64,000 bases of DNA from Thiobacillus sp. (lineage in GTDB: Bacteria > Pseudomonadota > Gammaproteobacteria > Burkholderiales > Thiobacillaceae): assembly GCA_019459055.1 (NCBI GenBank), contig JAIBEI010000015.1, positions 1 to 64,000 of the forward strand, given 5' to 3'. The position numbers and the translations under genes were made by a program. The notes below the pieces were generated by a model. The model did no database searches and had not been told where the DNA came from. It was given only the letters and a program-made list of their open reading frames with translations. Of this stretch, positions 18,771 through 33,089 are shown one piece after another (the first letter of the stretch is position 1; each line of letters opens with the position of its first letter).

Positions 18771-19073
18771 TACCCGCGCCCTGACCGATGGGGCGAATTG
18801 CTCCCCCCATCAAAACGCGGCAGTCCAGCGTGTTGGCAAGCGGACATTCCTGGATGACTCGGATTTTCCATGGGCGGAGGCCACGTGGAACCGCATGCCG
18901 CGCCGCCGCGTGGCGAATTGATCGGTGCTCTCAAGTGCCTCGCCGCCAGCCTGGACGCTTTCCCGTTGCAAAAGACACCAGCGCCAAACCATAAAACCGG
19001 CGCTATTGCATTTTTCATTGGATGGAAACCCGTGAGTTGGAGTAACCATATGTTTACAAAAGACAAATCAATG
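18771..19073. other. non-coding leader region between ppsA and the sulfur cluster
   Basis: About 300 bases with no convincing gene; frames crossing it lack ribosome sites and family resemblance. It contains an inverted repeat AGCGCC-N13-GGCGCT (18980-19004) and, at 19005-19023, an imperfect ATTGCAT-N5-ATTGGAT. These lie roughly 90-110 bases before the predicted start of the sigma-54 transcript and could be activator sites; both are weak. No intrinsic terminator after ppsA was seen. Confidence 0.4.
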
Positions 19074-19089
19074 TGGCACGCAACGTGCT
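19074..19089 (+). promoter_or_regulatory. sigma-54 promoter of the tusA-yedE operon
   Basis: TGGCACGCAACGTGCT has the full -24 element TGGCACG and a -12 element GTGCT with exact GG-N10-GC spacing. The start point would be near 19100, just ahead of a GAAGGA ribosome site and GTG codon. It closely resembles the promoter at 25110-25125 (shared -12 GTGCTT). Confidence 0.6.
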
Positions 19090-19121: not shown

Positions 19122-19451
19122 GTGCAAGTGAACAGTCTGTTCGATCGTTTTCATGACCGGCCAGCCGGTATGGCGAGCCTGGTGAACAAGGACATCGATG
19201 TTCCCGGTTTGGGGTGTGTCCATGTGGTGCGCTCGGTCGATTGCCTGGGCGCCATGTGTCCGCGGCCGCAGTTGCTGACCATGAAGGTGCTTGGCGAAGT
19301 CGGGTCGGGTGCGGCCATCGAAGTGGTGCTCGACAATCCCACGGCTGTCGAGGGGTTTCCTGCGCTGGCCCAGACGCTCGGCTGCGCGCATCTCGCCACG
19401 GTTCGGGAGCCTGATTGCTGGCGTGTGTACCTGCGCAAGGGGCTTTTTTAA
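19122..19451 (+). CDS. TusA-family sulfur carrier protein with N-terminal extension
   Basis: 109-aa protein whose last 75 residues form a TusA/SirA/YedF domain: VDCLGAMCPRPQLLTMKVLGEV, with the persulfide-accepting Cys of the CPRP motif at residue 46 and a second Cys at 41, then IEVVLDNPTAVEGFPALAQTLG. TusA proteins carry sulfane sulfur (or selenium) between enzymes. The GTG start at 19122 was chosen because GAAGGA is five bases upstream and the sigma-54 start point lies at about 19100; an upstream ATG at 19050 with GGAG would add 24 residues but lies before that promoter. It heads an operon with the YeeE/YedE transporter. Confidence 0.78.
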   Translation: MQVNSLFDRFHDRPAGMASLVNKDIDVPGLGCVHVVRSVDCLGAMCPRPQLLTMKVLGEVGSGAAIEVVLDNPTAVEGFPALAQTLGCAHLATVREPDCWRVYLRKGLF

Positions 19452-19507
19452 GCAATGCAATATGGGGCGGCCTGCCAGGTTCGCCGGTTTTACTGAGGAG
19501 AGTGTGA

Positions 19508-20956
19508 GTGAATGTGGCGTCGGCAAGTATCGCAACTGAAACACATTGGCTGTTTCGCAAAAGCAGTCTCCAGGCGATGGGGGTCTTCCTGCTCGTGGTC
19601 TCCGGTTCGCTGCTGGCCCTGGCGCAGGACACGCGCTTCGTCTACCTGCTGGTGTACGTCTGGTTTGGTCTCGCCTACGGCATCCTGCTGCAATACGGCC
19701 GTTTCTGCATGGCATCGGCGGTGCGCGACCTGTTCGCAGTGAAGGTGCCGCGCATGGCGGTCGGCGTGATGATCGCGGTGGCGCTGTACGCGGTCGTCGC
19801 CGCCATCGTCACCCTGGCAGGATTCAGTACATTCCATCCCAACGCGATGGGATGGCACATCGTCGTCGGCGCCGCAATTTTCGGCTTCGGCATCGTCTTT
19901 ACCGGCGGTTGCGCCTCGGGTTCGCTCTACAAGGCGGGCGAGGGAAACATGAACTCGATGCTGGTGATCCTGGCCATCTCGTTCTCTCAGGCGGTCGTTG
20001 TGACCGCCAGCGGCTGGTGGGACGCCCTGGTGCCGCAGTCGTGGATCGATTCCGCCGCGGCCAAGGACATGCCGGCCGAGCTGACCATCACGCAGGGCTG
20101 GTTTGATATCTTCACCGCGGGCTACATGTGGGATCTGAAGGGTTCCACCACCGCCGATGTGCTCGGCCAGAGCGGCGCTGCGAGCATCTTGCTGTACAAC
20201 ACCTTCCTGACCGCGATCCTGCCGGTCATCCTCATCCTGATCGCGCTGTATGTTTTCTACTACCGTAAGGGCTACCTGCGCCGTTCCGGCAAGGCCAGCC
20301 CGGCGCTGCGCGACGAGCTTGCAGGTATGTGGGCCATGTGCACGTCATCCAGGAATACCGCCCTGGCCGGTATCGGCCTTGGCATTCTCGCCGGCCTGCA
20401 CATGTACGTGACCGGCGCTTTGCGCGAGCACTACGACGTCTTCAACTTCGGCGAACTGCTGGTGGCGATGGGCTACACCGAGGGCCTGTCCATCCAGGAC
20501 ACCGTGTTCGACCCCGGCTACTGGTACATCACCACCCAGGAAGCGCAGTGGGGCGGCTGGGTCATGCAGAAGCTCGGCATCGACAACATGGACAGCATCT
20601 TCTTCGGTCTCGACAACGGCCTGCCGAACCCGCTGCTGAATGCGCCCGGTTTCATGTCGATCGGCATCATTCTCGGCGCCGCCATCATGGCGCTCTCCCG
20701 CCGCGAATTCAAATGGAAGCTGCCGAGCTGGGAAACGGCGTTCTTCGCCATCGTCGGCGGCACGCTGATGGGCATCGGCGCACGCCTGGCCATGGGCTGC
20801 AACATCGGCGCCTTCTTCGCCACCGTCACCAACGGCGACCCCAGCGGCTGGGTTTTCCTGGTCGGCATGGTGCTCGGCGCTTACGTCGGCGTGAAGGTCT
20901 TCACCTGGTACATGGACTGGAGCGACGCCCGCAAGACTTCGGAGTCCGGTCTCTAG
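19508..20956 (+). CDS. YeeE/YedE-family sulfur-species transporter
   Basis: 482-aa integral membrane protein with about ten to twelve hydrophobic helices. The conserved cysteine signatures of the family are present: YGRFCMASAVRDL, FTGGCASGSLYKAGEG and MGCNIGAFFATVTNGDPSGW. Characterised relatives import thiosulfate (TsuA), and YedE paralogues occur with selenium metabolism, usually beside a TusA/YedF protein, as here on both sides. The start is GTG at 19508 with GAGGAGA upstream. It probably delivers thiosulfate or another sulfur/selenium species into the cytoplasm for the TusA and DsrE-like carriers; substrate is not decided by sequence. Confidence 0.88.
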   Translation: MNVASASIATETHWLFRKSSLQAMGVFLLVVSGSLLALAQDTRFVYLLVYVWFGLAYGILLQYGRFCMASAVRDLFAVKVPRMAVGVMIAVALYAVVAAIVTLAGFSTFHPNAMGWHIVVGAAIFGFGIVFTGGCASGSLYKAGEGNMNSMLVILAISFSQAVVVTASGWWDALVPQSWIDSAAAKDMPAELTITQGWFDIFTAGYMWDLKGSTTADVLGQSGAASILLYNTFLTAILPVILILIALYVFYYRKGYLRRSGKASPALRDELAGMWAMCTSSRNTALAGIGLGILAGLHMYVTGALREHYDVFNFGELLVAMGYTEGLSIQDTVFDPGYWYITTQEAQWGGWVMQKLGIDNMDSIFFGLDNGLPNPLLNAPGFMSIGIILGAAIMALSRREFKWKLPSWETAFFAIVGGTLMGIGARLAMGCNIGAFFATVTNGDPSGWVFLVGMVLGAYVGVKVFTWYMDWSDARKTSESGL

Positions 20957-21007
20957 TCTTACTGTCCGGGAATTTCAGGCAAGCAATCATCATCAAGGAG
21001 TCGTGCT

Positions 21008-21259
21008 ATGGCAATGAGTTTCAACAAGATCGCCGATGGCGAATGGGAGCTGAACGTGTGCGGCTACGCCTGCCCGCACCCGCAGATGTACACCAAGAAA
21101 GCGCTGCAGAAGCTGGAAAGCGGCGATGTGCTGAGCCTGGTTTTCGATAACCCTTCCTCGGGCGAATCGATCATGGCCATGTGCGAAGCCGAGGGAAACG
21201 ACCTGATCGATCGCCAGGAGGGAAGCGGTTCCTTCACCTGGAAGATCAGGAAGGCCTGA
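21008..21259 (+). CDS. tusA: TusA-family sulfur carrier protein
   Basis: 83-aa TusA-like protein with NVCGYACPHPQMYTKKALQKLESGDVLSLVFDNPSS. The persulfide Cys is residue 22 in CPHP, with a further Cys at 18. AGGAG lies upstream of the ATG. It follows the transporter by 51 bases and precedes the DsrE-like gene by three, the order expected for importer, then carrier, then relay. Confidence 0.88.
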   Translation: MAMSFNKIADGEWELNVCGYACPHPQMYTKKALQKLESGDVLSLVFDNPSSGESIMAMCEAEGNDLIDRQEGSGSFTWKIRKA

Positions 21260-21262
21260 GTC

Positions 21263-21574
21263 ATGCAACTGGGTATCGTGATCACCGATGAATGTTTTCT
21301 GCCGCAGGCGAACGGCCTGATCGACGCGGCGACTGCGCGCGGTTGGAAAACCCTGAGCTTCCTGACCGACACCGGCGTCAATCTGCTTGCCGATGCAGGG
21401 TTTGTCGAGCGTGCGCGGGCGCGCCCGAACAGCGTCACCCTGTGCGAACACAGCGCCGAGCATTACGCCGCCGGCAGGTTTGACCTCAACACCCTCGCCG
21501 ACGTCGTCGTCGTCGGCGGCCAATACCAGGACGCCGAACTCGTGCGCACGTGCGACAAGGTGCTGGTCTTCTGA
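21263..21574 (+). CDS. DsrE-like sulfur-relay protein
   Basis: 103-aa protein with a DsrE/F-like Rossmannoid pattern: LGIVITDE, GLIDAATARGWKTLSFLTDTGVNLL, and VVVVGGQYQDAELVRTCDKVLVF. Cysteines at about 61 (LCEHS) and 97 could carry persulfide. Location three bases after tusA supports a role in the same sulfur-transfer chain. The family call rests on pattern, not on a search. Confidence 0.55.
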   Translation: MQLGIVITDECFLPQANGLIDAATARGWKTLSFLTDTGVNLLADAGFVERARARPNSVTLCEHSAEHYAAGRFDLNTLADVVVVGGQYQDAELVRTCDKVLVF

Positions 21575-21583
21575 GGACGGGAC

Positions 21584-21844
21584 ATGGCAGATCAAAAACA
21601 TATTCTGATGGTGGCCGTGCAGAAACCGGTCGAAGCGCTGCGCATGGCCAGCGGGCTCACCCTGCTCGACGACGCCGTCGCCATCGCCACCTGGGGCAGG
21701 CTGCCCGAAAGTGCCGACGTGGCGGAACAAATGGAAGCGCTGGCGTTCGCCGAGGTGCCCGTGGTGGAGCTCGACCCCGCCAGTGACGCCATGGCGGCCC
21801 TGGCGCGGCAGATCCTCGACCATGACGTGGTGTATTGCGTATGA
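21584..21844 (+). CDS. small DsrE/F-like protein of the sulfur operon
   Basis: 86-aa protein with a nucleotide-fold pattern HILMVAVQKPVEALRMASGLTLLDDAVAIATWGRLP. A single Cys is the penultimate residue (VVYCV), an exposed position that would suit persulfide transfer as the C-terminal cysteines of DsrC or TusE do. I cannot place it confidently in a named family. It overlaps the next small gene by four bases. Confidence 0.5.
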   Translation: MADQKHILMVAVQKPVEALRMASGLTLLDDAVAIATWGRLPESADVAEQMEALAFAEVPVVELDPASDAMAALARQILDHDVVYCV

Positions 21845-22026
21845 GCACGGAAAAACGGGTTTTGCTGATCAATCCCGCAGCGGTGCCGGCGATGCCGGGC
21901 CTGGCCGAAGCCTTGCGCGCCGCTGGCGCAGAAGTGCGGGAAATGAATACGGACGATTACGGCGCATTGCTCGATGCGCTGGAACAGGACTGGCTGCCGG
22001 TGGTGCTGAAAGCACCGACGGCCTGA
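21841..22026 (+). CDS. 61-aa protein of the sulfur operon, function unknown
   Basis: Small protein beginning MSTEKRVLLINPAAVPAMPGLAEALRAAG and ending VVLKAPTA, with no cysteine. The ATGA overlap with the previous gene fixes the start at 21841 and shows co-translation. It may be a partner subunit of the DsrE-like proteins, by analogy with hetero-oligomeric DsrEFH/TusBCD; that is inference only. A short GGTGCT/AGCACC hairpin lies at its 3' end without a U-tract. Confidence 0.5.
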   Translation: MSTEKRVLLINPAAVPAMPGLAEALRAAGAEVREMNTDDYGALLDALEQDWLPVVLKAPTA

Positions 22027-22045
22027 TGGGGTTTTGCCCGCGGCC

Positions 22046-22201
22046 ATGGTCGCGGTGGAGGTTGTGCATGGCTGGGACGGGCGGTTTTACCGCTGGCCTC
22101 TGGCGGGCCGGCCGCTATGGGTGCGCCGTCTTGCCGTCCGGCAAGGTGGGCGCGGGCTTGATAATGGATGGAGGATTCTCAATGAACAAGCAGATGAATA
22201 G
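22046..22201 (+). CDS. possible small ORF overlapping the rhodanese gene start
   Basis: A 51-codon frame (MVAVEVVHGWDGRFYRWPL...) filling most of the gap before the rhodanese gene and overlapping its start by 20 bases. The first half has G/C-ending codons like real genes; the second half does not, and the ribosome site is poor. It may be a decayed or spurious frame. The same gap holds a near-palindrome at 22038-22055 and a CTTGCC/GGCAAG hairpin. Confidence 0.2.
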   Translation: MVAVEVVHGWDGRFYRWPLAGRPLWVRRLAVRQGGRGLDNGWRILNEQADE

Positions 22202-23627
22202 GGGCTGGGCCGGCATGACCGCCCTGGCAATGGCGCTGGGCCTGCAGGGCTGCGGCGGCGGCGGTGAAGACACGACAGCGCTGGTGACACAAATCCCGGT
22301 GAATACGCCGGCGGCGATCGCCCAGGAGTCGGCTGCCAGCTACGATGACAACGTCAACGGCCTGATCACCGAATCGACGCTCAAGCGCTGGAAGGGTAAC
22401 TGGCTCAACCAGCGGCCTGCCGGCATCACCGGCAAGCTGGTCATCCTGCAGGTATCGGCCGGTCCGGCGGGCGCCGAATACATCAAGCCCAACGGCACCA
22501 ACGTGTTTACCTATCTGTCGCCGAGTAGCGAATGGATCCAGACCCGGACCAATGGCGTGATCGAGACGCCGAGCATGGTGCCGGACGGCGCGGCCATGGA
22601 CGCGTTGCTGAAGAAATACAACATCGACCCGCAAAACGACATGATCGTCGCCGCCATGGGCGAAGGCAACACTGGCAACGCGATGGCGCAGGGTCGCATC
22701 TGGTATGCCCTGCGCTACTGGGGCGTCGACAAGAAAAACCTGGCCATCCTCAACGGCGGCAACCAGTGGCTGGATGACGATCTGGGGCTGGCCGTCGAAC
22801 TGCTGCCTGCCGACTTCCAGGCGACCGCAAGCGCGGCGCCTAACAACGGTCACGCCACAGTCAGGGACCTGCTGGTCGACAACACCCAGCTGCAGGCGAC
22901 GGTGGGCGACATGCTCCGCATCCTGCCCGCGAGCGATACCAACGTGCTGAACGACGGCGTCTTCATCTGGGATGCGCGCAACACCTCGCAATACAGCGCC
23001 GGCGAAACCAGTACTGCGAACACGATCACCCCGGTCGCAAACTACATGACCACCTTCCAGAACGGCGGCTCGCGCCAGGGCCATCCGTGGGGCGCGTTGC
23101 AGCTCGACTTCACCAATATGCTGGATTCGGCAAAAGGGTGGGCCTACAAGAGCAAAGCCGAACTGCAGGCCTACCTGGACGGCAACGTCAGCGGCGCGGG
23201 CTTCATCGATGGAAGCTATCAGCACGTTGGCTTCGGCAATGCCTACCGGCCGGGCGACGTCATCTACACCTATTGCGAGACGACCTTCCGCGCGATGATC
23301 ACGGGCGTGGCCAGCACGGTGATCCTCGGCAAGCCGACCCGCTTCTACGACGGCGCGATGGTCGAGTGGAGTTCGCTGACCCCGGGAAGCGTCATCACCG
23401 ACGCGACCGGCAATGCGATCCTGCCCGAGGATTCGCCGTGGCGCACCGACGTGAAGTCCTTCTATCGTGCGGCATCGAGCCCGACCCAGGTGGCCCAGCG
23501 CTATATCACCGATGCGTATGCCAAGTCCTCCAACGCCATCATCGAGGCGGACAAGGCCTACAAATACGGCGAGGTGATCCCGACCGCCGGCACCAACGCC
23601 CCGCCCGCCAACCCGTGCGGCGGCTAA
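22182..23627 (+). CDS. rhodanese-family (thiosulfate sulfurtransferase-like) lipoprotein
   Basis: 481-aa exported lipoprotein: signal peptide with lipobox LQGC at residues 21-24, then two rhodanese-like domains. The N-terminal domain (about residues 60-220) lacks a catalytic Cys. The C-terminal domain (about 260-430) has WDARNTSQYSAGE, GHPWGALQLDF and the active-site loop YCETTFRA, a Cys-X4-Arg loop as in active rhodaneses. It would move sulfane sulfur outside the cytoplasm. Start at 22182 has GGAGG upstream. It lies between the sulfur-relay genes and the cytochromes, and Geobacter ExtH, as I recall, is also a rhodanese-like lipoprotein of a porin-cytochrome cluster. An intrinsic terminator follows. 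Confidence 0.82.
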   Translation: MNKQMNRGWAGMTALAMALGLQGCGGGGEDTTALVTQIPVNTPAAIAQESAASYDDNVNGLITESTLKRWKGNWLNQRPAGITGKLVILQVSAGPAGAEYIKPNGTNVFTYLSPSSEWIQTRTNGVIETPSMVPDGAAMDALLKKYNIDPQNDMIVAAMGEGNTGNAMAQGRIWYALRYWGVDKKNLAILNGGNQWLDDDLGLAVELLPADFQATASAAPNNGHATVRDLLVDNTQLQATVGDMLRILPASDTNVLNDGVFIWDARNTSQYSAGETSTANTITPVANYMTTFQNGGSRQGHPWGALQLDFTNMLDSAKGWAYKSKAELQAYLDGNVSGAGFIDGSYQHVGFGNAYRPGDVIYTYCETTFRAMITGVASTVILGKPTRFYDGAMVEWSSLTPGSVITDATGNAILPEDSPWRTDVKSFYRAASSPTQVAQRYITDAYAKSSNAIIEADKAYKYGEVIPTAGTNAPPANPCGG

Positions 23628-23658
23628 TTTCCGCCTGAACCTTGCTTTCTCCTATTCT

Positions 23659-23687
23659 GGCCCACGATACTCTCGTGGGCCTTTTTT
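23659..23687 (+). terminator. intrinsic terminator after the rhodanese gene
   Basis: Nine-bp perfect stem GGCCCACGA/TCGTGGGCC with loop TACTC, followed by six T residues. It ends 13 bases before the preferred start codon of the five-heme cytochrome, so it may limit rather than abolish transcription into that gene. Confidence 0.85.
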
Positions 23688-23700
23688 CATGGAGCTGGAT

Positions 23701-24927
23701 TTGAACCGTCTTTTTCAACCGTGGCAGTCGTGGCTGCTGCTGACCCTGCCGCTCCTGCTCGGGCTGCAGTCCGGTTGCGGCGAGAATCCTGCGCCTGCGG
23801 TCGAGGCCTTTTTAAGCAAGCACTGGACCGAACCGATGCCGCCGCAGGGTGCTCCGCCCGCCACGTTCTCGCCGCTGGAAGCCTCGCTCAGTCCTGAGGC
23901 CTGCGGGCAGTGCCATACCAAACAGCTTGCAGCCTGGCGCACTTCGCTGCACAGCAAGACAATGGGCCCCGGCCTGCGTTGGCAGCTCACATTGATGGAT
24001 CAGGATCAGGGCAACCGTTGCCTGCGCTGTCATGCGCCGCTGGCCGAGCAGAAAGCGCTGCTGGCGCTGGAGCACGGCTGGCCGAACGCGCCGAAGCAGC
24101 CGCCGCCGGACTATGTCGAAGCCGGCCTGGGGCATCAGGGCCTGGTTTGCGCGGCCTGCCACGTGCGCGGCCAGCAGCGCTTCGGGCCGCCGCCGCGCGG
24201 CGAGGTCGCCGCCGACATCCCGCATGGCGGCTTTACCGTATCCACGGCTTTCGGGGACAGCCGCTTCTGCGCGCATTGCCACCAGTTTCCGGATGACGGC
24301 CCGAGCATCGCCGGCAAATTGATGGAAGACACCTACCGGCAATGGCTTGCCAGTCCATACGCCAAGGAGGGGGGCGGCAAGCAAACCTGCCAGTCCTGCC
24401 ATATGCCGGATCGCCAGCACCTCTGGCGCGGTATTCACGATCCGGAGACGACGCGACGGGCGATCGATGTATCGCTGAAGCTGCATGCGCTTGGCGACGG
24501 CCGCTACGAGGCGCGGGCGAACGTTCGCAACAGCGGCGCGGGCCATCATTTCCCGACCTATATGGTGCCGAAGGTCGAACTCGCGTTTTACCGCCACGAT
24601 GCCGATGGCGGCATCTTCGAACTGGGGCGCCAAGTGATCGGCTGGCAGGTCGACACGCCGATTACGCGCGAGATTTTCGATACCCGCATCCCCGCCGGCG
24701 AGGCGCGCGATTTTCGGCAGCCCTTCACAGCGCCGGGCAGCGACTGGCGCGTGGTACTGGTCATGCGGGTGCTGCCGGCCGAGCATTACGAGCGCGTCTA
24801 CCGTGATAGCCTGAGCCGTGCCGACCAGTTGCCGGCTGCCGCGGTCCCGTTGTTGCGGCAAGCGCTCGCCGAGGCGGTAGCGGCACGCTATGAGTTGTTG
24901 CGTATGGAGGCGGGCGTGGATCGGTGA
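23701..24927 (+). CDS. five-heme c-type cytochrome lipoprotein
   Basis: 408-aa multiheme cytochrome with five CXXCH motifs (CGQCH, CLRCH, CAACH, CAHCH, CQSCH) in the first 240 residues. A beta-rich C-terminal domain begins near NSGAGHHFPTYMVPKVELAF, as in cytochrome c554-related proteins. The N-terminus is a lipoprotein signal (LLLTLPLLLGLQSGC). TTG at 23701 is preferred because GGAG is six bases upstream; an in-frame ATG at 23689 would overlap the terminator's U-tract. It is likely an electron carrier anchored to the outer or inner membrane, possibly working with the porin and three-heme cytochrome downstream. Confidence 0.85.
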   Translation: MNRLFQPWQSWLLLTLPLLLGLQSGCGENPAPAVEAFLSKHWTEPMPPQGAPPATFSPLEASLSPEACGQCHTKQLAAWRTSLHSKTMGPGLRWQLTLMDQDQGNRCLRCHAPLAEQKALLALEHGWPNAPKQPPPDYVEAGLGHQGLVCAACHVRGQQRFGPPPRGEVAADIPHGGFTVSTAFGDSRFCAHCHQFPDDGPSIAGKLMEDTYRQWLASPYAKEGGGKQTCQSCHMPDRQHLWRGIHDPETTRRAIDVSLKLHALGDGRYEARANVRNSGAGHHFPTYMVPKVELAFYRHDADGGIFELGRQVIGWQVDTPITREIFDTRIPAGEARDFRQPFTAPGSDWRVVLVMRVLPAEHYERVYRDSLSRADQLPAAAVPLLRQALAEAVAARYELLRMEAGVDR

Positions 24928-25035
24928 GATGCCAGGCTTCGGGCGGACCCGCAAGGCTGCTGAGGGACGCACGATTCATCCCGCTGTGAACTGCTGCCAT
25001 TCCGGGACCGATTGCAATTTGAAAGATCGCACTTC

Positions 25036-25054
25036 ATTGCACGTATTGTGCAAT
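25036..25054. promoter_or_regulatory. perfect inverted repeat, candidate NtrC-type activator site
   Basis: ATTGCACGTATTGTGCAAT: seven-base arms with a five-base spacer, centred about 90 bases before the predicted sigma-54 start point at about 25136. Position and symmetry fit an upstream activating sequence. The arms resemble NtrC half-sites (TGCAC/GTGCA) but the spacing is two bases shorter than the NtrC consensus. Confidence 0.6.
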
Positions 25055-25078
25055 CGAATCGGGCTTGCGGAATTGTTA

Positions 25079-25091
25079 TAAGTTCTTGATA
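25079..25091 (-). promoter_or_regulatory. IHF binding site
   Basis: Minus-strand TATCAAGAACTTA matches the IHF consensus WATCAANNNNTTR at every position. It lies between the inverted repeat and the -24/-12 promoter, where IHF would bend DNA to bring an activator to sigma-54 polymerase. Confidence 0.6.
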
Positions 25092-25109
25092 TGTATGGAT
25101 AATGATCTC

Positions 25110-25125
25110 TGGCATGGCTTGTGCT
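25110..25125 (+). promoter_or_regulatory. sigma-54 promoter of the cytochrome-porin operon
   Basis: TGGCATGGCTTGTGCT with exact GG-N10-GC spacing; -24 TGGCATG and -12 GTGCT. Its -12 element is the same as that of the promoter at 19074-19089. The start point would be near 25136, 15 bases before the first gene of the operon. Confidence 0.65.
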
Positions 25126-25150
25126 TTAGGAGAGTGTCGATAAGACAGAA

Positions 25151-25438
25151 ATGAACCGGAAACCCATGCGATCCACTGGCACAGTGACTTTGATGGCTCT
25201 TGCCCTGCTGTTGGCGGCACCGGCTGTTGCTGCGACCGAGCCGGGGCAGCCCAGACTCAAGTACCGCGGCAGTGGGCAGGCGTGTACCTGTGCTTCGAGT
25301 ACGAGCGAGGCGGAGATAAGCAAGGCATGGAATGACCGGTTTAAGCAATCGGAAGGCGCCCGTCTGGATAATCTGGACGGGCTTCCCGCAACTCGTGACG
25401 AGCAAAGGAGAAGGGTAGATGAAGCGCAACCAAGGTAA
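25151..25438 (+). CDS. small exported protein of the cytochrome-porin operon
   Basis: 95-aa protein with a signal peptide (VTLMALALLLAAPAVAA, cleavage near residue 28) and a short mature part of about 67 residues containing a CTC pair (QACTCASST) and a charged C-terminus. No family recognised. It is the first gene after the sigma-54 promoter and overlaps the three-heme cytochrome by 20 bases. ATG at 25166 is an alternative start. Its position corresponds to the small periplasmic protein of ext-type porin-cytochrome clusters; that is an analogy, not a homology claim. Confidence 0.65.
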   Translation: MNRKPMRSTGTVTLMALALLLAAPAVAATEPGQPRLKYRGSGQACTCASSTSEAEISKAWNDRFKQSEGARLDNLDGLPATRDEQRRRVDEAQPR

Positions 25439-25922
25439 GGGTGGTCTGTTGGGAAAAATCTGGCGCGGTGGTGTCATGCTGTCGCTGTTTGGCCTGGGTG
25501 TCGCAATGCTCACTGGCCTGGCTGGCAAGCACGCTGAAGATTCGACCGGGCTTGCGGCCACGGGTTGGGGCGGCGAGGCTACGGTGGCGCTGGCGGAAGG
25601 TGCGGCGCGGCTGTCGCCGATTTCTCTCGCCAATGCCTGCGGCCTGGGCGCTTCGAGTTGCTTCAAGTGCCACAACGGCAAGCGCGCAGCAGCGCCCGAA
25701 ATGGATGCCGCCAAGGCGCCCTGGCATGCGCAGCACTCCAAGGTGAACAACTCGTGTGTGGGTTGCCACAAGGGGAATTCGAGAATCATGAAGCAAGAAG
25801 TGGCGCACGCGAAGATGCTCGCCAAGCCTCGTGACAACACGGCTGACGCCTGCGGCAGCTGCCATAAGGGTGACCTGACCAAGGTGCAGGGCGCTTATCA
25901 CGCCATTCCAGGAGAGAAATAA
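25419..25922 (+). CDS. three-heme c-type cytochrome
   Basis: 167-aa protein with an uncleaved or signal-type hydrophobic N-terminus (GGVMLSLFGLGVAMLTGLAG) and three CXXCH motifs (CFKCH, CVGCH, CGSCH) in the last 95 residues, with additional histidines (WHAQH, EVAHAK) available as distal ligands. It is likely a periplasmic electron shuttle, membrane-anchored if the signal is not cleaved. It is translationally coupled to the preceding gene and followed by the porin after one base. Confidence 0.82.
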   Translation: MKRNQGKGGLLGKIWRGGVMLSLFGLGVAMLTGLAGKHAEDSTGLAATGWGGEATVALAEGAARLSPISLANACGLGASSCFKCHNGKRAAAPEMDAAKAPWHAQHSKVNNSCVGCHKGNSRIMKQEVAHAKMLAKPRDNTADACGSCHKGDLTKVQGAYHAIPGEK

Positions 25923-25923
25923 C

Positions 25924-27117
25924 ATGAAAATTCTGACTGTCCCGCGCAATACTGTTTCCCCGCTGTCCCGTGCCTGTGCTGTTGGCCTGCTCGCCGGTTT
26001 GCTGCCGCTGGGCGCAGTGGCTGGCCCCACCATCGAGTTCGGCGAGGAGGGTTCGCTCACCTTCACGTACGCGCTGCAGGGATGGTTGCAGCACAAAGGA
26101 TTCACTTCGGCAACCGATAACGGTTCGTCGAACGATGCTTTTTTGCGCCGCAACCGTCTGACCTTTTCCGGCCAGTACAACGACTTCGTGGGTTTTTATG
26201 CGCAGATCGAGGCTGGCAACGACAGCAAGCTCGGCGAGGACAACAAGAGCGTCTATTACCGCGACGCGTATGTGACCCTGGACTATCGCGATGAGGTGCG
26301 CTTCATTGCCGGCCGCTTCAAGAACACCTTCTCGCGGGAGAACCTGGAGGCGTGCCTGGAGCCGCTGACCCTGGACCGTGCCGAGGTGCTCTCCTACACG
26401 CCGTTCGGCGGCAGCCGCGATACCGGTCTGGCGGTCTGGGGCAACCTGTTGGATGCCAAACTCCAGTATCGCGTCATGATTGCCGACGGCCGCGAGGGCA
26501 ACGAAGTGGCCGAGGACAATCCCCGCCTGACTACCCGCGTGCATTACAGCTTCTGGGAGCCGGAATTCAACTACGGCTATCTGGGCACCTACCTGGGAAC
26601 GAAGAAGGTGCTGACCGTTGGCGCCGCCTACGATATGCAGGAAGGCGTCGCCTACGGCAACTATGTTGCGCGCAGCGACATCAAGGATTACAAGGCATGG
26701 ACGGTGGACGCGTTCATGGAGTACCCGACGGCGAGCGGGGTCTACACGCTGTCCGGCGCGGTCTTCGAGTACGACACCGGTGGCGCCACGAATATGAGTC
26801 CGGATCCCGCACTGCCTGTCAGCAGCGATCTCGAGGGCTATTACGTCAAGGCCGGCTACATGCTGCCCAACAAGATTGGCAAGGGTCGCCTGCAGTTCTT
26901 CGCTCGCCACGAGAAGTCCGATTACGGCGTTGAGACCGGCGGTGTCGAGTATTACGACCAGAACTGGAACAGCGTCGGTGCGAACTACTATCTGGACGGA
27001 CAGAAGTTGAAGGTCAGCTTCGAATACGCGGATATTTCCTTCGATACCGAACACCCGACCAACCCGGCGTTGCAGGATTATAATCAGGCCACGCTTGGCC
27101 TGCAGTTCGTCTTCTGA
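25924..27117 (+). CDS. outer-membrane porin (phosphate-selective porin O/P-like)
   Basis: 397-aa protein with a signal peptide (GLLAGLLPLGAVAG, mature from about residue 35), long alternating beta-strand pattern, and a C-terminal phenylalanine (LGLQFVF), all typical of beta-barrel porins. Strands such as FLRRNRLTFSGQYNDFVGFYAQIEAG match the OprO/OprP-like family. In a cluster with multiheme cytochromes it may be the barrel of a porin-cytochrome conduit, or a channel for an oxyanion such as thiosulfate, selenite or tellurite. A strong terminator follows. Confidence 0.85.
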   Translation: MKILTVPRNTVSPLSRACAVGLLAGLLPLGAVAGPTIEFGEEGSLTFTYALQGWLQHKGFTSATDNGSSNDAFLRRNRLTFSGQYNDFVGFYAQIEAGNDSKLGEDNKSVYYRDAYVTLDYRDEVRFIAGRFKNTFSRENLEACLEPLTLDRAEVLSYTPFGGSRDTGLAVWGNLLDAKLQYRVMIADGREGNEVAEDNPRLTTRVHYSFWEPEFNYGYLGTYLGTKKVLTVGAAYDMQEGVAYGNYVARSDIKDYKAWTVDAFMEYPTASGVYTLSGAVFEYDTGGATNMSPDPALPVSSDLEGYYVKAGYMLPNKIGKGRLQFFARHEKSDYGVETGGVEYYDQNWNSVGANYYLDGQKLKVSFEYADISFDTEHPTNPALQDYNQATLGLQFVF

Positions 27118-27139
27118 TCTGTCTCTTGCAGTGGTTCTG

Positions 27140-27174
27140 CACGGCCGCCCGGTGACTGGCGGCCGTGTTTTTTT
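27140..27174 (+). terminator. intrinsic terminator after the porin gene
   Basis: Ten-bp perfect stem CACGGCCGCC/GGCGGCCGTG with an eight-base loop and a run of seven T. It separates the porin operon from the two-component genes, which must be expressed by read-through or a promoter I cannot identify in the remaining 50 bases. Confidence 0.88.
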
Positions 27175-27226
27175 CCGTGTTGTGTCAATCAAGTAGTCAA
27201 GAGGTATTGCCATCAAATCGCTGAGT

Positions 27227-28672
27227 TTGCGGGGGACAGCCAACCGGCGCCCCTTCATTTCAATCTTTCCCGGCCACCTGCTGCTGGCTGCGATTGCATT
27301 GCTGGCTGGCCTGCTGTATGCCTTTTTTGGTCCTTTCTGGAACGAATCGCACCTTCTCTGGCTGTCCGGTTTCCTGCTGGCCGCCCTGTTCGCCTATCTG
27401 ATCGTGCGCCTGCTTGGCGAACGGGCCGCGCTGAGGCGACTTGAGCTTGGCATTCTTCACGCGCGTGAAGGTCTGCTGGAACCGACCTCGGCCGAGCCCT
27501 ACGCATGGACCAGCATCGGCCGCCTGATACCGGAATACAACACCACCATCACCACGCTGCGGATGATGTTCCAGACCGTGGAGGAATGTCAGGGGCGTTT
27601 CCTCAACGAGCGCAACCGCAGCAACACCATTCTGCAAAGCCTGCCGGGTGCCCTGCTGAGCCTTGCTGACGATTTGCGCGTCACCATCGCCAACCGCCAG
27701 GCGGATGCGCTGTTCGATGTCCGGCCGGGTGCGCTGATCGGCGCAAACCTGTTCGAACTGCTCGACGTCAACGAGCACGACCGTGAACTGCTGCGCGACG
27801 CCTTTCTCTACAAGCACATGATCCGAAACCAGGAAATTGCCCTCAACGTCGGTGGCGGCAAGCGTTTCTTTTCGCTCAACCTCGCCTTCTACAGCGATGA
27901 GGAAAACGACATGGGCGGCGTGCTGATCCTGCAGGACATCACCGAGCATCGCCAATTGATGGAAAGCGTTGCGACGCGCGAGAAACTGGTGGCGATGGGC
28001 CAGCTGGCAGCCGGCGTCGCGCACGAACTGAACACGCCCCTTGGCAATATACTTGGCTATGCGCAACTGCTCGACCGGGGCGCGGCCGAGCATCCAAAAC
28101 TGGCGGGCTATGCCCGCATCATCGTCGACGAGACGCAGCGCTGCTCGCGCGTGGTGCAGGAATTGCTCGACTACGCGCGCAAGGACAAGTGCAGCGGCGA
28201 GACCTGCGACCTGAACCAGCTGGCACAGGAGTTGATCGAGACATTCATCAACTGCAGGCTTAAACGCTACCGGATCGAAATCGTGCTGGACCTGTGCCCG
28301 GAAATGCTGGTGGTCGAGGGGGGATGCGGCCAGCTCGATATCGTCTTGAGCAACCTGCTGATCAATGCCATCGATGCGCTCGACAAAACGCCGTCGCCGC
28401 GCATCGTCGTGCGCACCTGGGCGGAAGACGCCAATGCCGCCATCGCCATTTCAGACAACGGCCCGGGCGTACCGCAGGATATCCGCAAGCGTTTGTTCGA
28501 TCCCTTCTTTTCCACCAAGGAAGTCGGGCAGGGCTCCGGGCTTGGCCTGTCCATCAGCCAGGCAATCGTTACAAAACGTGGCGGCTTTATTGCTTATGAT
28601 GCCGCGAATGGCGAAGGCGCGTGCTTCGTCGTCAAACTGCCGGCAGTCGACCTGGAACGAGCAAAATCATGA
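27227..28672 (+). CDS. NtrB-type sensor histidine kinase
   Basis: 481-aa membrane sensor: two N-terminal membrane helices (residues 17-35 and 43-62) with almost no periplasmic loop, a PAS domain (about 130-240, ILQSLPGALLSLADDLRVTIANRQA), HisKA with the phospho-His at about 266 (GVAHELNTPLGNILGY), and HATPase_c (NLLINAIDAL, ISDNGPGVP, STKEVGQGSGLGLSI). The lack of a periplasmic domain suggests an internal signal, for example redox or sulfur state. The start is unclear: TTG at 27227 has no ribosome site, whereas GAGG is seven bases before an in-frame ATC at 27212. Overlaps the regulator by four bases. Confidence 0.88.
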   Translation: MRGTANRRPFISIFPGHLLLAAIALLAGLLYAFFGPFWNESHLLWLSGFLLAALFAYLIVRLLGERAALRRLELGILHAREGLLEPTSAEPYAWTSIGRLIPEYNTTITTLRMMFQTVEECQGRFLNERNRSNTILQSLPGALLSLADDLRVTIANRQADALFDVRPGALIGANLFELLDVNEHDRELLRDAFLYKHMIRNQEIALNVGGGKRFFSLNLAFYSDEENDMGGVLILQDITEHRQLMESVATREKLVAMGQLAAGVAHELNTPLGNILGYAQLLDRGAAEHPKLAGYARIIVDETQRCSRVVQELLDYARKDKCSGETCDLNQLAQELIETFINCRLKRYRIEIVLDLCPEMLVVEGGCGQLDIVLSNLLINAIDALDKTPSPRIVVRTWAEDANAAIAISDNGPGVPQDIRKRLFDPFFSTKEVGQGSGLGLSISQAIVTKRGGFIAYDAANGEGACFVVKLPAVDLERAKS

Positions 28673-30087
28673 AACAGGATGCCTCCGCTCCACGCAGCAA
28701 TGACAAGGATGCCGGCACGGCCGATGCCGTCCCGACCATTCTGGTTACCGAGGATGACCGCAACATGCGTGAGCTGATCCTCGCCGTGCTGGCCGAGTCG
28801 TCGATGACGTTCAAGGTGGCCAGCGCCGAGAACGCGCACGAGGCGATGGATTTCCTCGGAAACAACGACGCCGCCGTTGTGATCTCCGATCTCCGCATGC
28901 CGGGCGCCGATGGTCTTGACCTGCTCAAGTTCGTGAAATCGCATGACCCGCAGACCCAGGTCGTGCTGGTCACCGGCCATGCCACCGTCGAGTCCGCCAT
29001 CGATGCCCTCAAGGAAGGCGCCTACGATTACGTGCAGAAGCCGTTCGACACCATCAAGCTGCGCTGCGTGGTGGAAAAGGCGCTCGGTTTCTACCTGCTT
29101 TCGACCGAGAACCAGCGCCTGCGTCGGCAAAGCCGTGCCTACGAGGAAAGCGGCGAGATCATCGGCCAGTCCCAGGCGAAGGAGCGGGTCGACCGCCTGA
29201 TCGATGCCGCCGCCGCCTACGACTCCAGTGTGTTGATCTTCGGTGAAAGCGGCAGCGGCAAAGAGCTGGTGGCACGTCAGATCCACCAGCGCGGCAAGCG
29301 CCGCGAGAAGTCCTTCGTCGCCATCAACTGCGCGGCGATCCCGGATAACCTGATCGAAAGCGAGCTGTTCGGCTTTCGCAAAGGCTCCTTTACCGGCGCC
29401 GAGCGCAACAAGCCGGGCCTGTTCGAGGTTGCCGATGGCGGTACCCTGTTCCTCGACGAAATCAACAATGCCCCGCTGGCGCTGCAGGCCAAGCTGCTGC
29501 GCGTGCTGCAGGACGGCAGTTTCTACCCGACCGGCGCCACCGAACCGGTTCATGTTGACGTCCGCGTGATCGCCGCCAGCAACCGGCCGATTCCCGAACT
29601 GGTGGAAAGTGGCCAGTTTCGCGAAGACCTCTTCTATCGTCTGTCGGTGATGGAGATCAGCGTCCCGCCGCTGCGCGAGCGGCGCGAGGATATCGCTCTG
29701 CTGACCTACTATTTGCTGAACAAACATTCGTTGCGCCTCGGCAAGCACATCAGCGGCGTCAGCACCGCCGTGCTCGGCGCGCTGATGCGTTATGACTGGC
29801 CCGGCAACGTGCGCGAACTGGAAAACATCATCCAGCGCATGATCATTCTTGCCGAGTCGGATCATATCGATGCCGACGTGCTGCCGCCGCGGCTGACCGA
29901 GCAGAAGGACCCGCGCGGACGCGCCCTCGACTATCTGCCACCGCAAAGCCTGGACGAAGTGGAGGCCTATTTCATCCGCAAGACCCTGCGCGAGACGCAC
30001 GGCGACCGTGCGCTGGCGGCGGAAATCCTCGGAATCGACAAATCGACCTTGTGGCGCAAGGTCAAGCGCTATGGCATTGAGGAATAA
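28669..30087 (+). CDS. NtrC-family sigma-54 response regulator
   Basis: 472-aa activator: receiver domain with phospho-Asp at residue 74 ([12 protein letters not shown]), AAA+ domain with Walker A GESGSGKE, the sigma-54-contacting loop written GSFTGA rather than the usual GAFTGA, Walker [10 protein letters not shown] and [10 protein letters not shown], then a Fis-type helix-turn-helix ([21 protein letters not shown]). It is co-translated with the kinase. It is the obvious candidate to act at the sigma-54 promoters at 25110 and 19074, through the inverted repeat at 25036-25054. No phosphotransfer or binding evidence is available from sequence. Confidence 0.93.
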
Positions 30088-30225
30088 TGCCGTCGGTCGA
30101 ACGCGCGTGTCGCGTTTCTTCCCGGCCGATGCCACTTGCTGCCCGGCGGAATTGCCGCGGTGCCCGGGCGCCTGGGCGGCCCGCCTAGTTGCGCCGCCAT
30201 GCCTTTTATAGGAAGCTTGAACGCG

Positions 30226-31011
30226 ATGTCGCTTGCCCCCCTTTTCGTCTCGTTGCGCCGCGCTTCCTGGTTGGGCGCACCGCTGAATCTTCTGTTGCTG
30301 CTGGCGCTGGCGGCCTTGCTGGCGCACTGGACCTGGCGCTTTGCCGCGCCTGTGCCGCCGCTGTCGGCAAGCGCCGCGCGCGCCGACATCAAGCCGGGCG
30401 AGCAACTGGCTTCGCTGCGTGCGGCGCATCTGTTCGGCGCGGCGCAGGGGGCGGCGGATCTGCGCGGTGAGCCGGTGACCTCGCTCAACCTGAAGCTGCG
30501 CGGGGTGTTCGCTGCACTGGGCGGCCAGCCGGCGATGGCGATTCTGGGCGTTGACGGGCAGGACCAGGCCGTTGCCACCGGTTATGAAATCGTGCCGGGA
30601 GTGGTGCTGGACTCGGTGGCCCCCGACCACGTGATTCTGCTCAATCGCGGGATGCGTGAGCGCCTCGACCTGGATGCGGTGGGGCAGCCGCTGGCGCTGG
30701 CTGGCGGCGACATTCCGGTCTCGCGCAATGAATTCAACCAGGCTTTGGCCAACCCGCAAAGTCTCGGGGTTCAGGCGAGCGCAGGGAGTGGCGCGCAGCC
30801 TGGCCTGGTGCTGACCGCGGTGGCGGCTGACGGGCTGGCTGCGCGGCTGGGCCTGCAGAGCGGGGACACGCTACGCATGGTCAATGGCATGCCGGTTGCC
30901 AATGTGCAGGACTTTGCGCAGCAGTTGTCCGGCACGGTGGGGGTGCAGAACCTCACCGTAGTGGGCGAACGCCAGGGCAAGCCGCTTACTCTTTCTTACA
31001 GGCTGCAGTAG
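30226..31011 (+). CDS. gspC: type II secretion protein GspC
   Basis: Inner-membrane clamp protein linking the secretin to the inner-membrane platform. It has one N-terminal membrane helix (LNLLLLLALAALLAHWTW), the HR domain (SLNLKLRGVFAALGGQPAMAILG...YEIVPGVVLDSVAPDHVILLNRG) and a C-terminal PDZ domain (VAADGLAARLGLQSGDTLRMVNG). ATG at 30226 was chosen, with AGGAAG ten bases upstream; ATG at 30199 is possible. First gene of a complete gspC-N operon placed just after the sigma-54 regulator. Confidence 0.9.
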   Translation: MSLAPLFVSLRRASWLGAPLNLLLLLALAALLAHWTWRFAAPVPPLSASAARADIKPGEQLASLRAAHLFGAAQGAADLRGEPVTSLNLKLRGVFAALGGQPAMAILGVDGQDQAVATGYEIVPGVVLDSVAPDHVILLNRGMRERLDLDAVGQPLALAGGDIPVSRNEFNQALANPQSLGVQASAGSGAQPGLVLTAVAADGLAARLGLQSGDTLRMVNGMPVANVQDFAQQLSGTVGVQNLTVVGERQGKPLTLSYRLQ

Positions 31012-31016
31012 AAACG

Positions 31017-33089
31017 ATGAACAACATGAAAAAAACACGATCGGGTTTCCCCCGCCGGCTGGCGTTGAGCGTCCTGTTGCTGGCGCTGGCGCTGCCGCCG
31101 TTGCAGACCCTGGCCCAGACCCAGACCCAGACTGGCCCGGTCGTTCTCAATTTCGTCAACGCCGATATCCCCTCGGTGATCAAGGCGGTGGGCGAACTCA
31201 CCGGCAAGAACTTCATCATCGATCCGCGCGTCAAGGGCACGGTGATCATCACTTCAGCGAGGCCGGTGCCGCGCGACCAGGTGTATCCGATCCTGCTGTC
31301 GGCGCTGCGCATGCAGGGCTTTTCGGCGATCGAGGGCCGCGGGGTGGTGAAGATCGTGCCGGAAGCGGAGGCGAAGCAGAATTACAGCGTGACCCGCGGC
31401 AAGCAGATCAACGAGAGCGGCGACCGGATCATCACCCAGGTCTACCCGCTGCAGCATGAGTCCGCCGCGCAATTGATGCCGGTGCTGCGGCCGCTGATTG
31501 GTCCCAACAACACCATCGCGGTGCTGCCCAGCAGCAACACGCTGGTGATTACCGATTATGCCGACAACGTGCGCCGGCTGAACGCGGTCATCGAGGCGGT
31601 CGACCAGCCGAGCGCAAACGACACCGCGTTGATCCGGCTGAACCATGTGTCGGCGGTGGACGTGGCGCAGTCGCTGGGGCGGCTGATGTCCGACGGTGCC
31701 GCCGCGGCGGGGCAGCCGGGCGGTGCGCGGCTGACGATCGTGCCGGATGTGCGCTCGAATTCGCTGCTGGTGCGCAGCGACAATCCCTCGCGCATCCAGA
31801 CGCTGCGCGGCCTGATCGCCGGGCTCGATGTGGCGGGCGTGGCGGGCGGCAACATTCATGTGGTGTATCTGCGCAATGCCGAAGCGGCGAAGCTGGCCGA
31901 GACGCTGCGCGGCGTTCTGACCGGCGAGGCGCCGAGCGGGCTGGCGACAGCGACCACGCCGGCCGCCAGCCAGACGGCCAGCGTCAACCCCGTATCCGGC
32001 GCCGCCGGCGGCAGCATGATCCTCGCCGATGCGGCGACCAACTCGCTCGTCATCAGCGCGCCGGACGTGACCTACAACGCACTGCGCGCGGTGATCGACA
32101 AGCTCGACGCGCGCCGTGCACAGGTGTTCGTCGAGGCACTGGTGGTGGAGATCACCGCCGAGAAAGCGGCCGAGTTCGGCATCCAGTGGCAGGACCTGCG
32201 CGGCATCGAGAAGAGCGGCACGAATTTTATCGGCGGCACCAACCTCGGCGGCCGCAATACCGGCAGCAACATCCTCGACGCCGCGGTCAACCTCGGCACC
32301 GTGGGGCAGGGGCTGAACATCGGCATCGTCAGCGGCACCATCAACATCCCCGGCCTCGGCGTGGTGACCAACCTCGGCGCGCTGGCGCGGGCGCTGGAAT
32401 CGGACGCCAACGCCAACATCCTGTCGACGCCCAACCTGCTGACCATGGACAACGAGGAGGCGAAGATCGTGATCGGCCAGAATGTGCCCTTCATCACCGG
32501 CCAGTATGCGCAGACCGGCTCCACCACCACGCCGAGCCCGTTTCAGACCATCGAACGCCGCGACGTCGGGCTGACGCTGAGGGTGCGGCCGCAGGTGTCG
32601 GAAGGCGGCTCGGTCAAGCTGGAGATCTATCAGGAGATTTCCAGCCTGCGTCCGACCACCACGGCGGCCGACATCATCACCGACATGCGCTCCATCGATT
32701 CCACGGTGCTGGTCGACGACGGCCGCATCATCGTCATCGGCGGGCTGATCCAGGACACCATGCAGGACGGTGTCGACAGGGTGCCGGTGCTGGGTGACAT
32801 CCCGCTGATCGGCCATCTGTTCAGGTCGGAAAAGCGCAAGCGCATGAAAACCAACCTGATGGTGTTCCTGCGACCGTACGTGCTGCGCGACACCAGCAGT
32901 TCGGACGTGCTGACCGGCGAGCGTTATGACTTCATCCGGCAGAAACAGGCCGAGTTCCGCATGCAGCCGCATTTTGCCCTGCCCGACATGCAGATGGAGC
33001 CGCTGCCCGAGCTGAAGAATCCGCCGCTGCCCCAGCGGGTCAACCAGCCGCCGCAGCCCGCCCAGAACTCGCCGCTGACCGCGCCCTGA
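31017..33089 (+). CDS. gspD: type II secretion secretin GspD
   Basis: Outer-membrane secretin, 690 aa. It has a signal peptide (LALSVLLLALALPPLQTLAQ), an N0 domain (VVLNFVNADIPSVIKAVGELTGKNF), N1-N3 repeats with an Ala/Gly-rich insertion near residue 310, and the secretin domain with VPFITGQYA and VPVLGDIPLIGHLFRSE. The C-terminus is Pro-rich (about 40 residues) and lacks a recognisable pilotin (GspS) partner in the window. Its stop overlaps gspE by one base. Confidence 0.95.
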   Translation: MNNMKKTRSGFPRRLALSVLLLALALPPLQTLAQTQTQTGPVVLNFVNADIPSVIKAVGELTGKNFIIDPRVKGTVIITSARPVPRDQVYPILLSALRMQGFSAIEGRGVVKIVPEAEAKQNYSVTRGKQINESGDRIITQVYPLQHESAAQLMPVLRPLIGPNNTIAVLPSSNTLVITDYADNVRRLNAVIEAVDQPSANDTALIRLNHVSAVDVAQSLGRLMSDGAAAAGQPGGARLTIVPDVRSNSLLVRSDNPSRIQTLRGLIAGLDVAGVAGGNIHVVYLRNAEAAKLAETLRGVLTGEAPSGLATATTPAASQTASVNPVSGAAGGSMILADAATNSLVISAPDVTYNALRAVIDKLDARRAQVFVEALVVEITAEKAAEFGIQWQDLRGIEKSGTNFIGGTNLGGRNTGSNILDAAVNLGTVGQGLNIGIVSGTINIPGLGVVTNLGALARALESDANANILSTPNLLTMDNEEAKIVIGQNVPFITGQYAQTGSTTTPSPFQTIERRDVGLTLRVRPQVSEGGSVKLEIYQEISSLRPTTTAADIITDMRSIDSTVLVDDGRIIVIGGLIQDTMQDGVDRVPVLGDIPLIGHLFRSEKRKRMKTNLMVFLRPYVLRDTSSSDVLTGERYDFIRQKQAEFRMQPHFALPDMQMEPLPELKNPPLPQRVNQPPQPAQNSPLTAP

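Follow-up and report, generated by a model that had tools for sequence, protein, structure and literature searches.

In the genome of a Thiobacillus sp. (GCA_019459055.1; 2.93 Mb, 51 contigs), genes for cytoplasmic sulfur carriers are followed by genes for a rhodanese lipoprotein, multiheme cytochromes and an outer-membrane porin, which raises the question whether these genes form one system and what such a system might move across the cell envelope. The window, meaning the whole stretch of 64,000 nucleotides that was analysed (JAIBEI010000015.1, positions 1 to 64,000), is part of contig C48. From about 19.17 to 30.09 kb it contains a contiguous block of 13 genes, all on the plus strand, as identified by open reading frame (ORF) calls, Pfam matches and counts of CxxCH motifs. 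The order is tusA1, yeeE, tusA2 and three small ORFs for DsrEFH-like proteins, followed by the genes for the rhodanese lipoprotein and a pentaheme cytochrome, and then by those for a small exported protein with a CxC motif (CxC protein), a triheme cytochrome, an ExtI porin and an NtrB/NtrC pair.

Judged by its predicted proteins, the left half is the known YTD cluster (YeeE, TusA, DsrEFH type II-like), and the right half resembles the ext genes of Geobacter. The two halves belong together. It is considered somewhat probable that the block encodes a dedicated, self-regulated system for the trans-envelope uptake and persulfide relay of thiosulfate or other sulfane sulfur, which would supply oxidation in the cytoplasm, the cytochromes serving as redox partners in the periplasm. 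This bears on the passage of sulfane sulfur through the outer membrane of neutrophilic sulfur oxidisers and on the native role of Geobacter ExtH and ExtI, and the block ties both questions to YeeE, TusA and DsrEFH type II by evidence from linkage, promoters and cysteines.

Linkage of the sulfur genes to the porin

The rhodanese was identified in 7 of 36 genomes of the genus, the own genome included, and in 0 of 24 genomes from other families of the order. The remaining six carriers of the genus contain all 13 genes in identical order. A chance neighbourhood is rejected by this distribution and by the complete order in the relatives. A reading made earlier from the sequence alone (the sequence-only reading) had described a contiguous set of sulfur carriers, rhodanese, porin, cytochromes and NtrB/NtrC, and this description was confirmed by the ORFs, Pfam domains, heme counts and recurrence in the six relatives.

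Among 369 genomes sampled from the class, ExtI with at least 56% identity was found in eight genomes besides the own one, the next best porin showing 32%. The block lies on one contig in six of these genomes and is split over contig ends in two (G085 and G392). YeeE with at least 64% identity was present in seven genomes besides the own one, all of them among the eight ExtI carriers. In the eighth, G326 (L051, L104), the other block genes are accompanied by a YeeE broken into weak fragments; tusA2 was not found in L051. A named scan kept 78 loci from 255 relatives, 73 of which are beta- or gammaproteobacterial. YeeE is present in 60 of these 73 ExtI loci, and in the other 13 the contig ends at most 5.2 kb upstream of the porin. 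The counts refer to loci and not to independent events, L116 and L008 being from the same genome and L105 and L131 being one genome taken twice. The conserved co-occurrence with YeeE supports the earlier proposal that an ext-like set is attached here to cytoplasmic persulfide carriers.

The linkage holds across main, divergent and compact gene orders. The divergent order was identified in L083, L087, L090 and L092, and in L091 the sulfur genes follow the regulator. In the compact order (eight loci), the genes are arranged as rhodanese, CxC protein, triheme cytochrome, porin, YeeE, TusA and pentaheme cytochrome, without DsrEFH and NtrBC. Compact loci include those of Solimonas, Hydrocarboniphaga, Cellvibrio and Rubrivivax gelatinosus; for the last, TusA is located elsewhere and the porin frame is broken. 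Named isolates with the locus are Thiohalobacter thiocyanaticus Hrh1, Hydrocarboniphaga effusa AP103 and Solimonas flava DSM 18980. T. thiocyanaticus, which is listed with an ExtI homologue in excerpts of PMC5877670, contains one ExtI over the cut-off, and this lies inside a full block.

For the Nitrospirota, ExtI over the cut-off was found in 16 of 198 genomes, and 13 ExtI loci were read, 10 of which encode an ExtH-like protein. Three of them (L171, L175 and L176) combine YeeE, ExtH, ExtI and NtrB/NtrC-type genes with no multiheme ORF. TusA was identified by profile in L175 and L176 and by eye only in L171; DsrE- and DsrF-like matches were obtained in L175 only, and L176 has a second YeeE. 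In the YeeE tree, the sequences of nine genomes of the class with YTD only form one clade apart from the ExtI-linked YeeE, and the branches of the Nitrospirota sequences are saturated, for which reason a single origin of the association between YeeE and ExtI is not claimed. That YeeE is always accompanied by ExtI was rejected because of these nine YTD-only genomes. Among the papers listed by searches of a largely open-access literature, none joins ExtI or ExtH with YedE, YeeE, YTD, TusA or DsrEFH, and the excerpts of PMC12545173 and PMC13186404 hold no description of a join between YTD and ext.

Predicted promoters shared by the two halves

Two predicted sigma-54 type promoters were identified in the block, TGGCACGCAACGTGCT before tusA1 (19074..19089, plus strand) and TGGCATGGCTTGTGCT before the gene for the small exported protein (25110..25125, plus strand). 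A TTGCAA element on the same strand lies 108 bp before the first box (18966..18971), a spacing that relatives keep, and another lies 98 bp before the second (25012..25017). The tusA1 site is present in 34 of 42 main-form loci and the second site in 26 of 41 loci. With a strict sigma-54 pattern, 73 sites were obtained in the 42 main-form loci (34 at tusA1, 27 at the CxC gene, 9 at the rhodanese gene and 3 elsewhere), of which 70 lie at most 260 bp upstream of one of these three genes; the minus strand gave none. Mononucleotide shuffling, used as a chance control, gave about 1 site per strand over the full loci. A search for palindromic enhancers yielded nothing clear, and a spaced-word search then yielded TTGCAA. 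Of the 73 sites, 66 have this element at most 220 bp upstream; it was counted 86 times there, and the remainder of the blocks would predict 2.6 copies. At tusA1 it mostly stands 106-110 bp from the box, at the other sites 97-100 bp.

In the own 2.93-Mb genome, the composite of TTGCAA and sigma-54 box occurs at the two block sites only. With a slightly looser pattern, it was found in 36 of the 42 main-form loci, in 23 of them at two or more places, and in 4 of 7 divergent or cut loci (L083, L087, L090 and L093; not L091, L092 and L119). In L087 it points both ways, one composite towards each half. Across 40 genomes of the genus, the composite occurs 15 times in eight carriers, every time inside the block, and a reversed control pattern gave 1 match; the eight are the seven rhodanese carriers of the genus and G843, whose locus L269 shows ext genes. 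It was found in 0 of 8 compact loci, which have no NtrBC, in 0 of the 8 Geobacter-like loci scanned (of 21) and in 0 of 9 YTD-only loci.

The last two genes of the block code for an NtrB-type sensor kinase (27227..28672, plus strand; PAS, HisKA and HATPase domains) and an NtrC-type sigma-54 activator (28621..30087, plus strand; Response_reg, Sigma54_activat and HTH_8 domains). The Pfam domains of both thus bear out the sequence-only reading in assigning to the block its own two-component sigma-54 pair. The -24/-12 boxes together with a positioned upstream element point to sigma-54/NtrC-type control, and the predicted promoters shared by both halves oppose an unrelated expression of the two. 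TTGCAA may be the site bound by NtrC. A specificity of this NtrC for the block across phyla was rejected: the regulator model scored 501-528 bits in L171, L175 and L176 and 506 bits in L231, so that NtrC lineages are not separated by it.

Porin, rhodanese and cytochromes

The ExtI porin (25924..27117, plus strand) passes the cut-off of the curated ExtI model NF040900 (340.7 bits, cut-off 150; positions 8-403 of 403 covered), matches Porin_O_P with 56 bits and is 97% identical to the porin of a Thiobacillus sp. A search of the PDB by sequence gave no match. The structural model is a barrel of 16 long strands, with OprO and OprP as nearest neighbours (Foldseek E about 1e-15), a mean predicted local distance difference test score (pLDDT) of 71.6 and a predicted template modelling score of 0.71. 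The fold class is thus common to ExtI and the OprO/OprP anion porins. ExtI differs from the latter by Cys144, which sits in a 31-residue loop after strand 5, where related porins have another residue. By analogy with OprO/OprP-type porins, this loop is taken to be the constriction loop. Cys144 is present in all 78 named-locus ExtI rows having a residue there and in 49 of 49 further rows, one of which, the borderline L169 (G468, 153 bits), shows Thr at this position in a different alignment; in related porins it was found in 0 of 30 rows (28 distinct). An invariant cysteine in the predicted constriction loop fits a relay for sulfur uptake.

The rhodanese lipoprotein (22182..23627, plus strand) matches Pfam Rhodanese with 23.8 bits (cut-off 22.2) and the NCBIfam ExtH model NF040901 with 110 bits (E 1.2e-31); the cut-off of 200 was not reached, which makes it a homologue of ExtH and not a member of the family. 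Its profile matches two-domain thiosulfate sulfurtransferases in the PDB (1uar, E 2e-12, residues 69-279 aligned). The lipobox Cys24 is present in 62 of 62 rows, the presumed active-site Cys365 (CETTFR) in 63 of 63 and the C-terminal Cys479 in 60 of 60. By its tandem-domain fold and catalytic cysteine, the protein is likely a thiosulfate sulfurtransferase.

The pentaheme cytochrome (23689..24927, plus strand; five CxxCH motifs) scored 47.7 bits with the NCBIfam ExtKL model NF040886, whose cut-off of 250 was not reached, and its homology to ExtK was identified by hhalign (98.9%). The CxC protein (25151..25438, plus strand; consensus GPVCMCxxGLSExDI) contains Cys45 in 65 of 66 aligned rows and Cys47 in 66 of 66. 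The triheme cytochrome (25419..25922, plus strand) has an N-terminal hydrophobic segment, three CxxCH motifs and an extra invariant Cys74 (68 of 68 rows), and its profile gave weak matches to NrfA-type cytochromes in a sequence search of the PDB. Near-invariant thiols are thus present in the porin, the rhodanese, the CxC protein and the triheme protein, and also in YeeE, TusA and the DsrE-like protein.

Compared with Geobacter extHIJKLMNOPQS, the block has in common a member of the ExtI family, homologues of ExtH and ExtK, and a rhodanese lipoprotein beside the porin. It contains no ExtJ, no 12- or 10-heme proteins and no LysR gene, and it adds the CxC and triheme proteins, YeeE/TusA/DsrEFH and NtrBC. 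The likeness to extHIJKL drawn in the sequence-only reading therefore stood for ExtI, ExtH and ExtK and failed for the small periplasmic protein: an identity of the CxC protein with ExtJ was rejected, with an hhalign probability of 2.3% against the ExtJ profile of Geobacter-like loci (7 rows). The gene set extH-I-J-K(L) is thus interrupted in the block, ExtJ being absent and other genes being inserted. The Geobacter-like locus L163 codes for ExtI (717 bits) and for proteins with 5, 12 and 10 hemes; where the published locus has its LysR gene, L163 has a divergent gene. ExtI over the cut-off was found in 27 of 58 genomes of its order. In G818, a Geobacter-like genome, the neighbourhood of an ExtI paralogue of 275 bits (L231) includes a 9-heme protein as well as an NtrB/NtrC-type pair.

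A porin-cytochrome (Mtr/Pcc) conduit consists of a large barrel sheathing a multiheme cytochrome, together with an outer-surface cytochrome. The sequence-only reading had suggested a route linking the uptake or transformation of sulfur to electron transfer across the outer membrane. As an extracellular electron conduit, ExtI together with the cytochromes would carry electrons through this membrane to or from solids, the electrons coming from the sulfur carriers. The homology of ExtI, ExtH and ExtK speaks for it, as do the two multiheme proteins of the block, of which the pentaheme one shows a lipobox-like cysteine (Cys30, 34 of 53 rows) and is a possible outer-surface cytochrome. Growth of Geobacter on Fe(III) citrate was cut to 66% of wild type by deletion of extHIJKL (excerpts of PMC6148476). 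However, the ExtI model resembles an OprO/OprP-like barrel of 16 strands more than a cytochrome-sheathing one, no gene for a large outer-surface cytochrome was found within the block by CxxCH count, and 12 of the 13 Nitrospirota ExtI loci contain no ORF with two or more CxxCH motifs, L179 having three multiheme ORFs beside ExtI. A conduit is considered unlikely.

Direction and substrate of the proposed transport

In the left half, the YeeE/YedE family inner-membrane transporter (19508..20956, plus strand) matches PF04143 (Sulf_transp) with 170 bits and stays under the cut-offs of all four NCBIfam models that it matched. Its Cys67 and Cys135 (each 58 of 59 rows) and Cys431 (61 of 61) are near-invariant. 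Two TusA-like carriers flank it: TusA1 (19170..19451, plus strand, with an uncertain start, 19116 being possible) scored 57.8 bits with PF01206 and has Cys29 in 51 of 51 rows, and the TusA/YeeD-like TusA2 (21008..21259, plus strand) scored 65.8 bits and has Cys22 in 61 of 61. The predicted DsrE-like subunit of DsrEFH type II (21263..21574, plus strand; Cys61 in 54 of 54 rows) gave no Pfam match and chance-level matches in a PDB sequence search. Its AlphaFold2 model (pLDDT 90.6) has a DsrE/DsrH-type fold, the top structural neighbours including 2pd2, DsrH 2hy5_C and DsrE 3pnx with probabilities of 0.89-1.00 and a best E value of 2.4e-3. The DsrF-like subunit (21584..21844, plus strand; the Chp of the YTD cluster) is assigned by position and by the published YTD content (excerpts of PMC13047784 and PMC13293266) and gave no Pfam and no PDB sequence match, and the DsrH-like subunit (21835..22026, plus strand; no Pfam match) is assigned by position.

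YeeE, TusA, the DsrE-like protein and two further small proteins are thus adjacent, as in published YTD clusters (yeeE-tusA-dsrEFH type II), which share with the block YeeE, TusA and three small DsrEFH-like proteins. Unlike those, the block has a second TusA, an adjacent NtrBC pair, predicted sigma-54 promoters, and linked ExtH, ExtI and cytochromes. Complete YTD clusters were found to be confined to Desulfobacterota and Nitrospirota among four phyla studied (PMC12998232), and some were reported in Pseudomonadota in excerpts of PMC13293266, with which the Thiobacillus block agrees. The YeeE-YeeD (TsuA-TsuB) system for thiosulfate uptake and SoxT sulfur import have in common with the block an inner-membrane YeeE-type transporter, a TusA-like partner and conserved cysteines; the block also has a porin, and the terms porin and outer membrane count 0 in PMC11582611.

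For YeeE relatives, the import of thiosulfate has been reported, and for similar proteins that of zero-valent sulfur (excerpts of PMC13047784 and PMC11582611). dsrA was identified in 18 of 21 main-form genomes (missing in G085, G295 and G395) and in 3 of 3 Nitrospirota; SoxB over the cut-off was present in 5 of 6 main-form genomes (missing in G395) and also in 3 of 3 Nitrospirota. Since YeeE relatives import thiosulfate and the block co-occurs with Dsr, sulfur uptake is favoured over electron export. In the own genome (G000), two dsrA copies over the cut-off lie on contigs C28 and C51.

In the proposed uptake system, lipid-anchored ExtH, a two-domain protein like thiosulfate sulfurtransferase, would take sulfane sulfur from thiosulfate, polythionate or polysulfide, possibly at the cell surface, and ExtI, as a pore of the anion-porin type with a constriction-loop thiol, would let the compound through the outer membrane. 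In the periplasm, both cytochromes and the CxC protein would set its redox state, so that persulfide is made or released and electrons pass to the periplasmic pool. Transfer through the inner membrane would fall to YeeE, TusA together with the DsrEFH type II-like complex would pass the sulfur on to the Dsr pathway, and the adjacent NtrB/NtrC pair would turn on both halves from the promoters with TTGCAA and a sigma-54 box. With considerable doubt, the thiols may be ordered further: a surface rhodanese might load the sulfur, the invariant pore thiol might guide or gate it, and a chain of cysteines from ExtH over ExtI, the CxC protein, YeeE and TusA to DsrE might relay persulfide from outside to the cytoplasm. 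If the block is an outer-membrane device for sulfane-sulfur uptake, Geobacter ExtH and ExtI and their selenium/tellurium phenotype would derive from such a device.

Several observations weigh against the proposed uptake system. Ten of the 13 Nitrospirota ExtI loci have no clear YeeE, several of them being cut by contig ends; YTD occurs without ExtI in the nine genomes of the class; and YeeE-, TusA- or DsrEFH-like matches were obtained in 0 of 21 Geobacter-like ext loci. The promoter composite was found in 0 of 10 Nitrospirota ExtI loci scanned (of 13), and seven copies of it lie in 5 of those 32 genomes of the genus that are not known as carriers, G842, G844 and G845 among the 32 being outside the block search. 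The flanks of these seven composites showed no ext or sulfur gene; at two of them, the only matches were to generic kinases or regulators. For ExtI, 21 transmembrane domains are described in excerpts of PMC6148476 versus the 16 strands modelled, and the Cys144 loop is modelled at low confidence. To these are added the possible surface position of the pentaheme cytochrome and the multiheme ORFs of L179, both given above, and the compact-form genomes, in which dsrA was found in 0 of 5 and SoxB over the cut-off in 0 of 7, and whose loci are without DsrEFH genes. The distribution of dsrA and SoxB suggests that the DsrEFH part is tied to the Dsr pathway and that ExtH, ExtI, YeeE and TusA can exist without it.

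The compact-form genomes also bear on two further explanations. Excess sulfane sulfur might be moved out for detoxification and become extracellular S0, because the same parts could run backwards, and the lack of dsrA and SoxB in the compact form would agree with this. Against such an export, which is judged a poor prospect, stand the characterised YeeE proteins, which import thiosulfate, and the presence of dsrA in most main-form genomes. Slightly better placed, and still quite improbable, is a sulfur disproportionation module, in which YTD and ext handle uptake and cleavage of S0 or thiosulfate. YTD proteins were more abundant during thiosulfate disproportionation (excerpts of PMC9751629), and Desulfurivibrio alkaliphilus and Desulfocapsa sulfexigens are reported to have ExtI homologues (excerpts of PMC5877670). 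However, the link of YTD to disproportionation is called poorly supported in excerpts of PMC13293266, the loci were found in Thiobacillus, in Thiohalobacter and in others, Solimonas and Cellvibrio among them, and the compact-form genomes gave no dsrA.

The selenite and tellurite handling implicated in Geobacter would make the cluster a system for uptake and reduction of chalcogen oxyanions. Loss of ExtI impairs selenite and tellurite reduction there (excerpts of PMC5877670), and the best NCBIfam model for YeeE is the selenium YedE/FdhT one, at 157 bits (cut-off 350). Sulfur is indicated instead by the DsrE-like protein, by TusA and by the co-occurrence of dsrA, and the effects on selenium and tellurium could be a side reaction of the pore thiol, so that this explanation is regarded as highly improbable.

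Among the YTD-only loci, the gammaproteobacterial clusters L240-L242, L246 and L247 are adjoined by a protein starting with MKC..(P/H)(A/P)W.PE.IF and an NAD(P)-binding-oxidoreductase-like protein, and the same two proteins adjoin ExtI in L166 and L173 (families tentatively assigned by eye). No relative of the block was found in viral contigs (32 pattern matches), and plasmids gave 4 records with a best identity of 30%.

The block is flanked in the window by ppsA upstream and gspCDE downstream; in the stretches read from six carriers of the genus, ppsA adjoins in four and gspC in five. The genes gspC, gspD and gspE are located at 30136-34603, directly after the block. GspD with E 1e-100 or better was identified in 10 of 40 genomes of the genus, namely in all eight known block carriers and in the incomplete genomes G025 and G845. 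Type II secretion could bring ExtH or the cytochromes to the surface; alternatively, the block carriers may simply form one clade.

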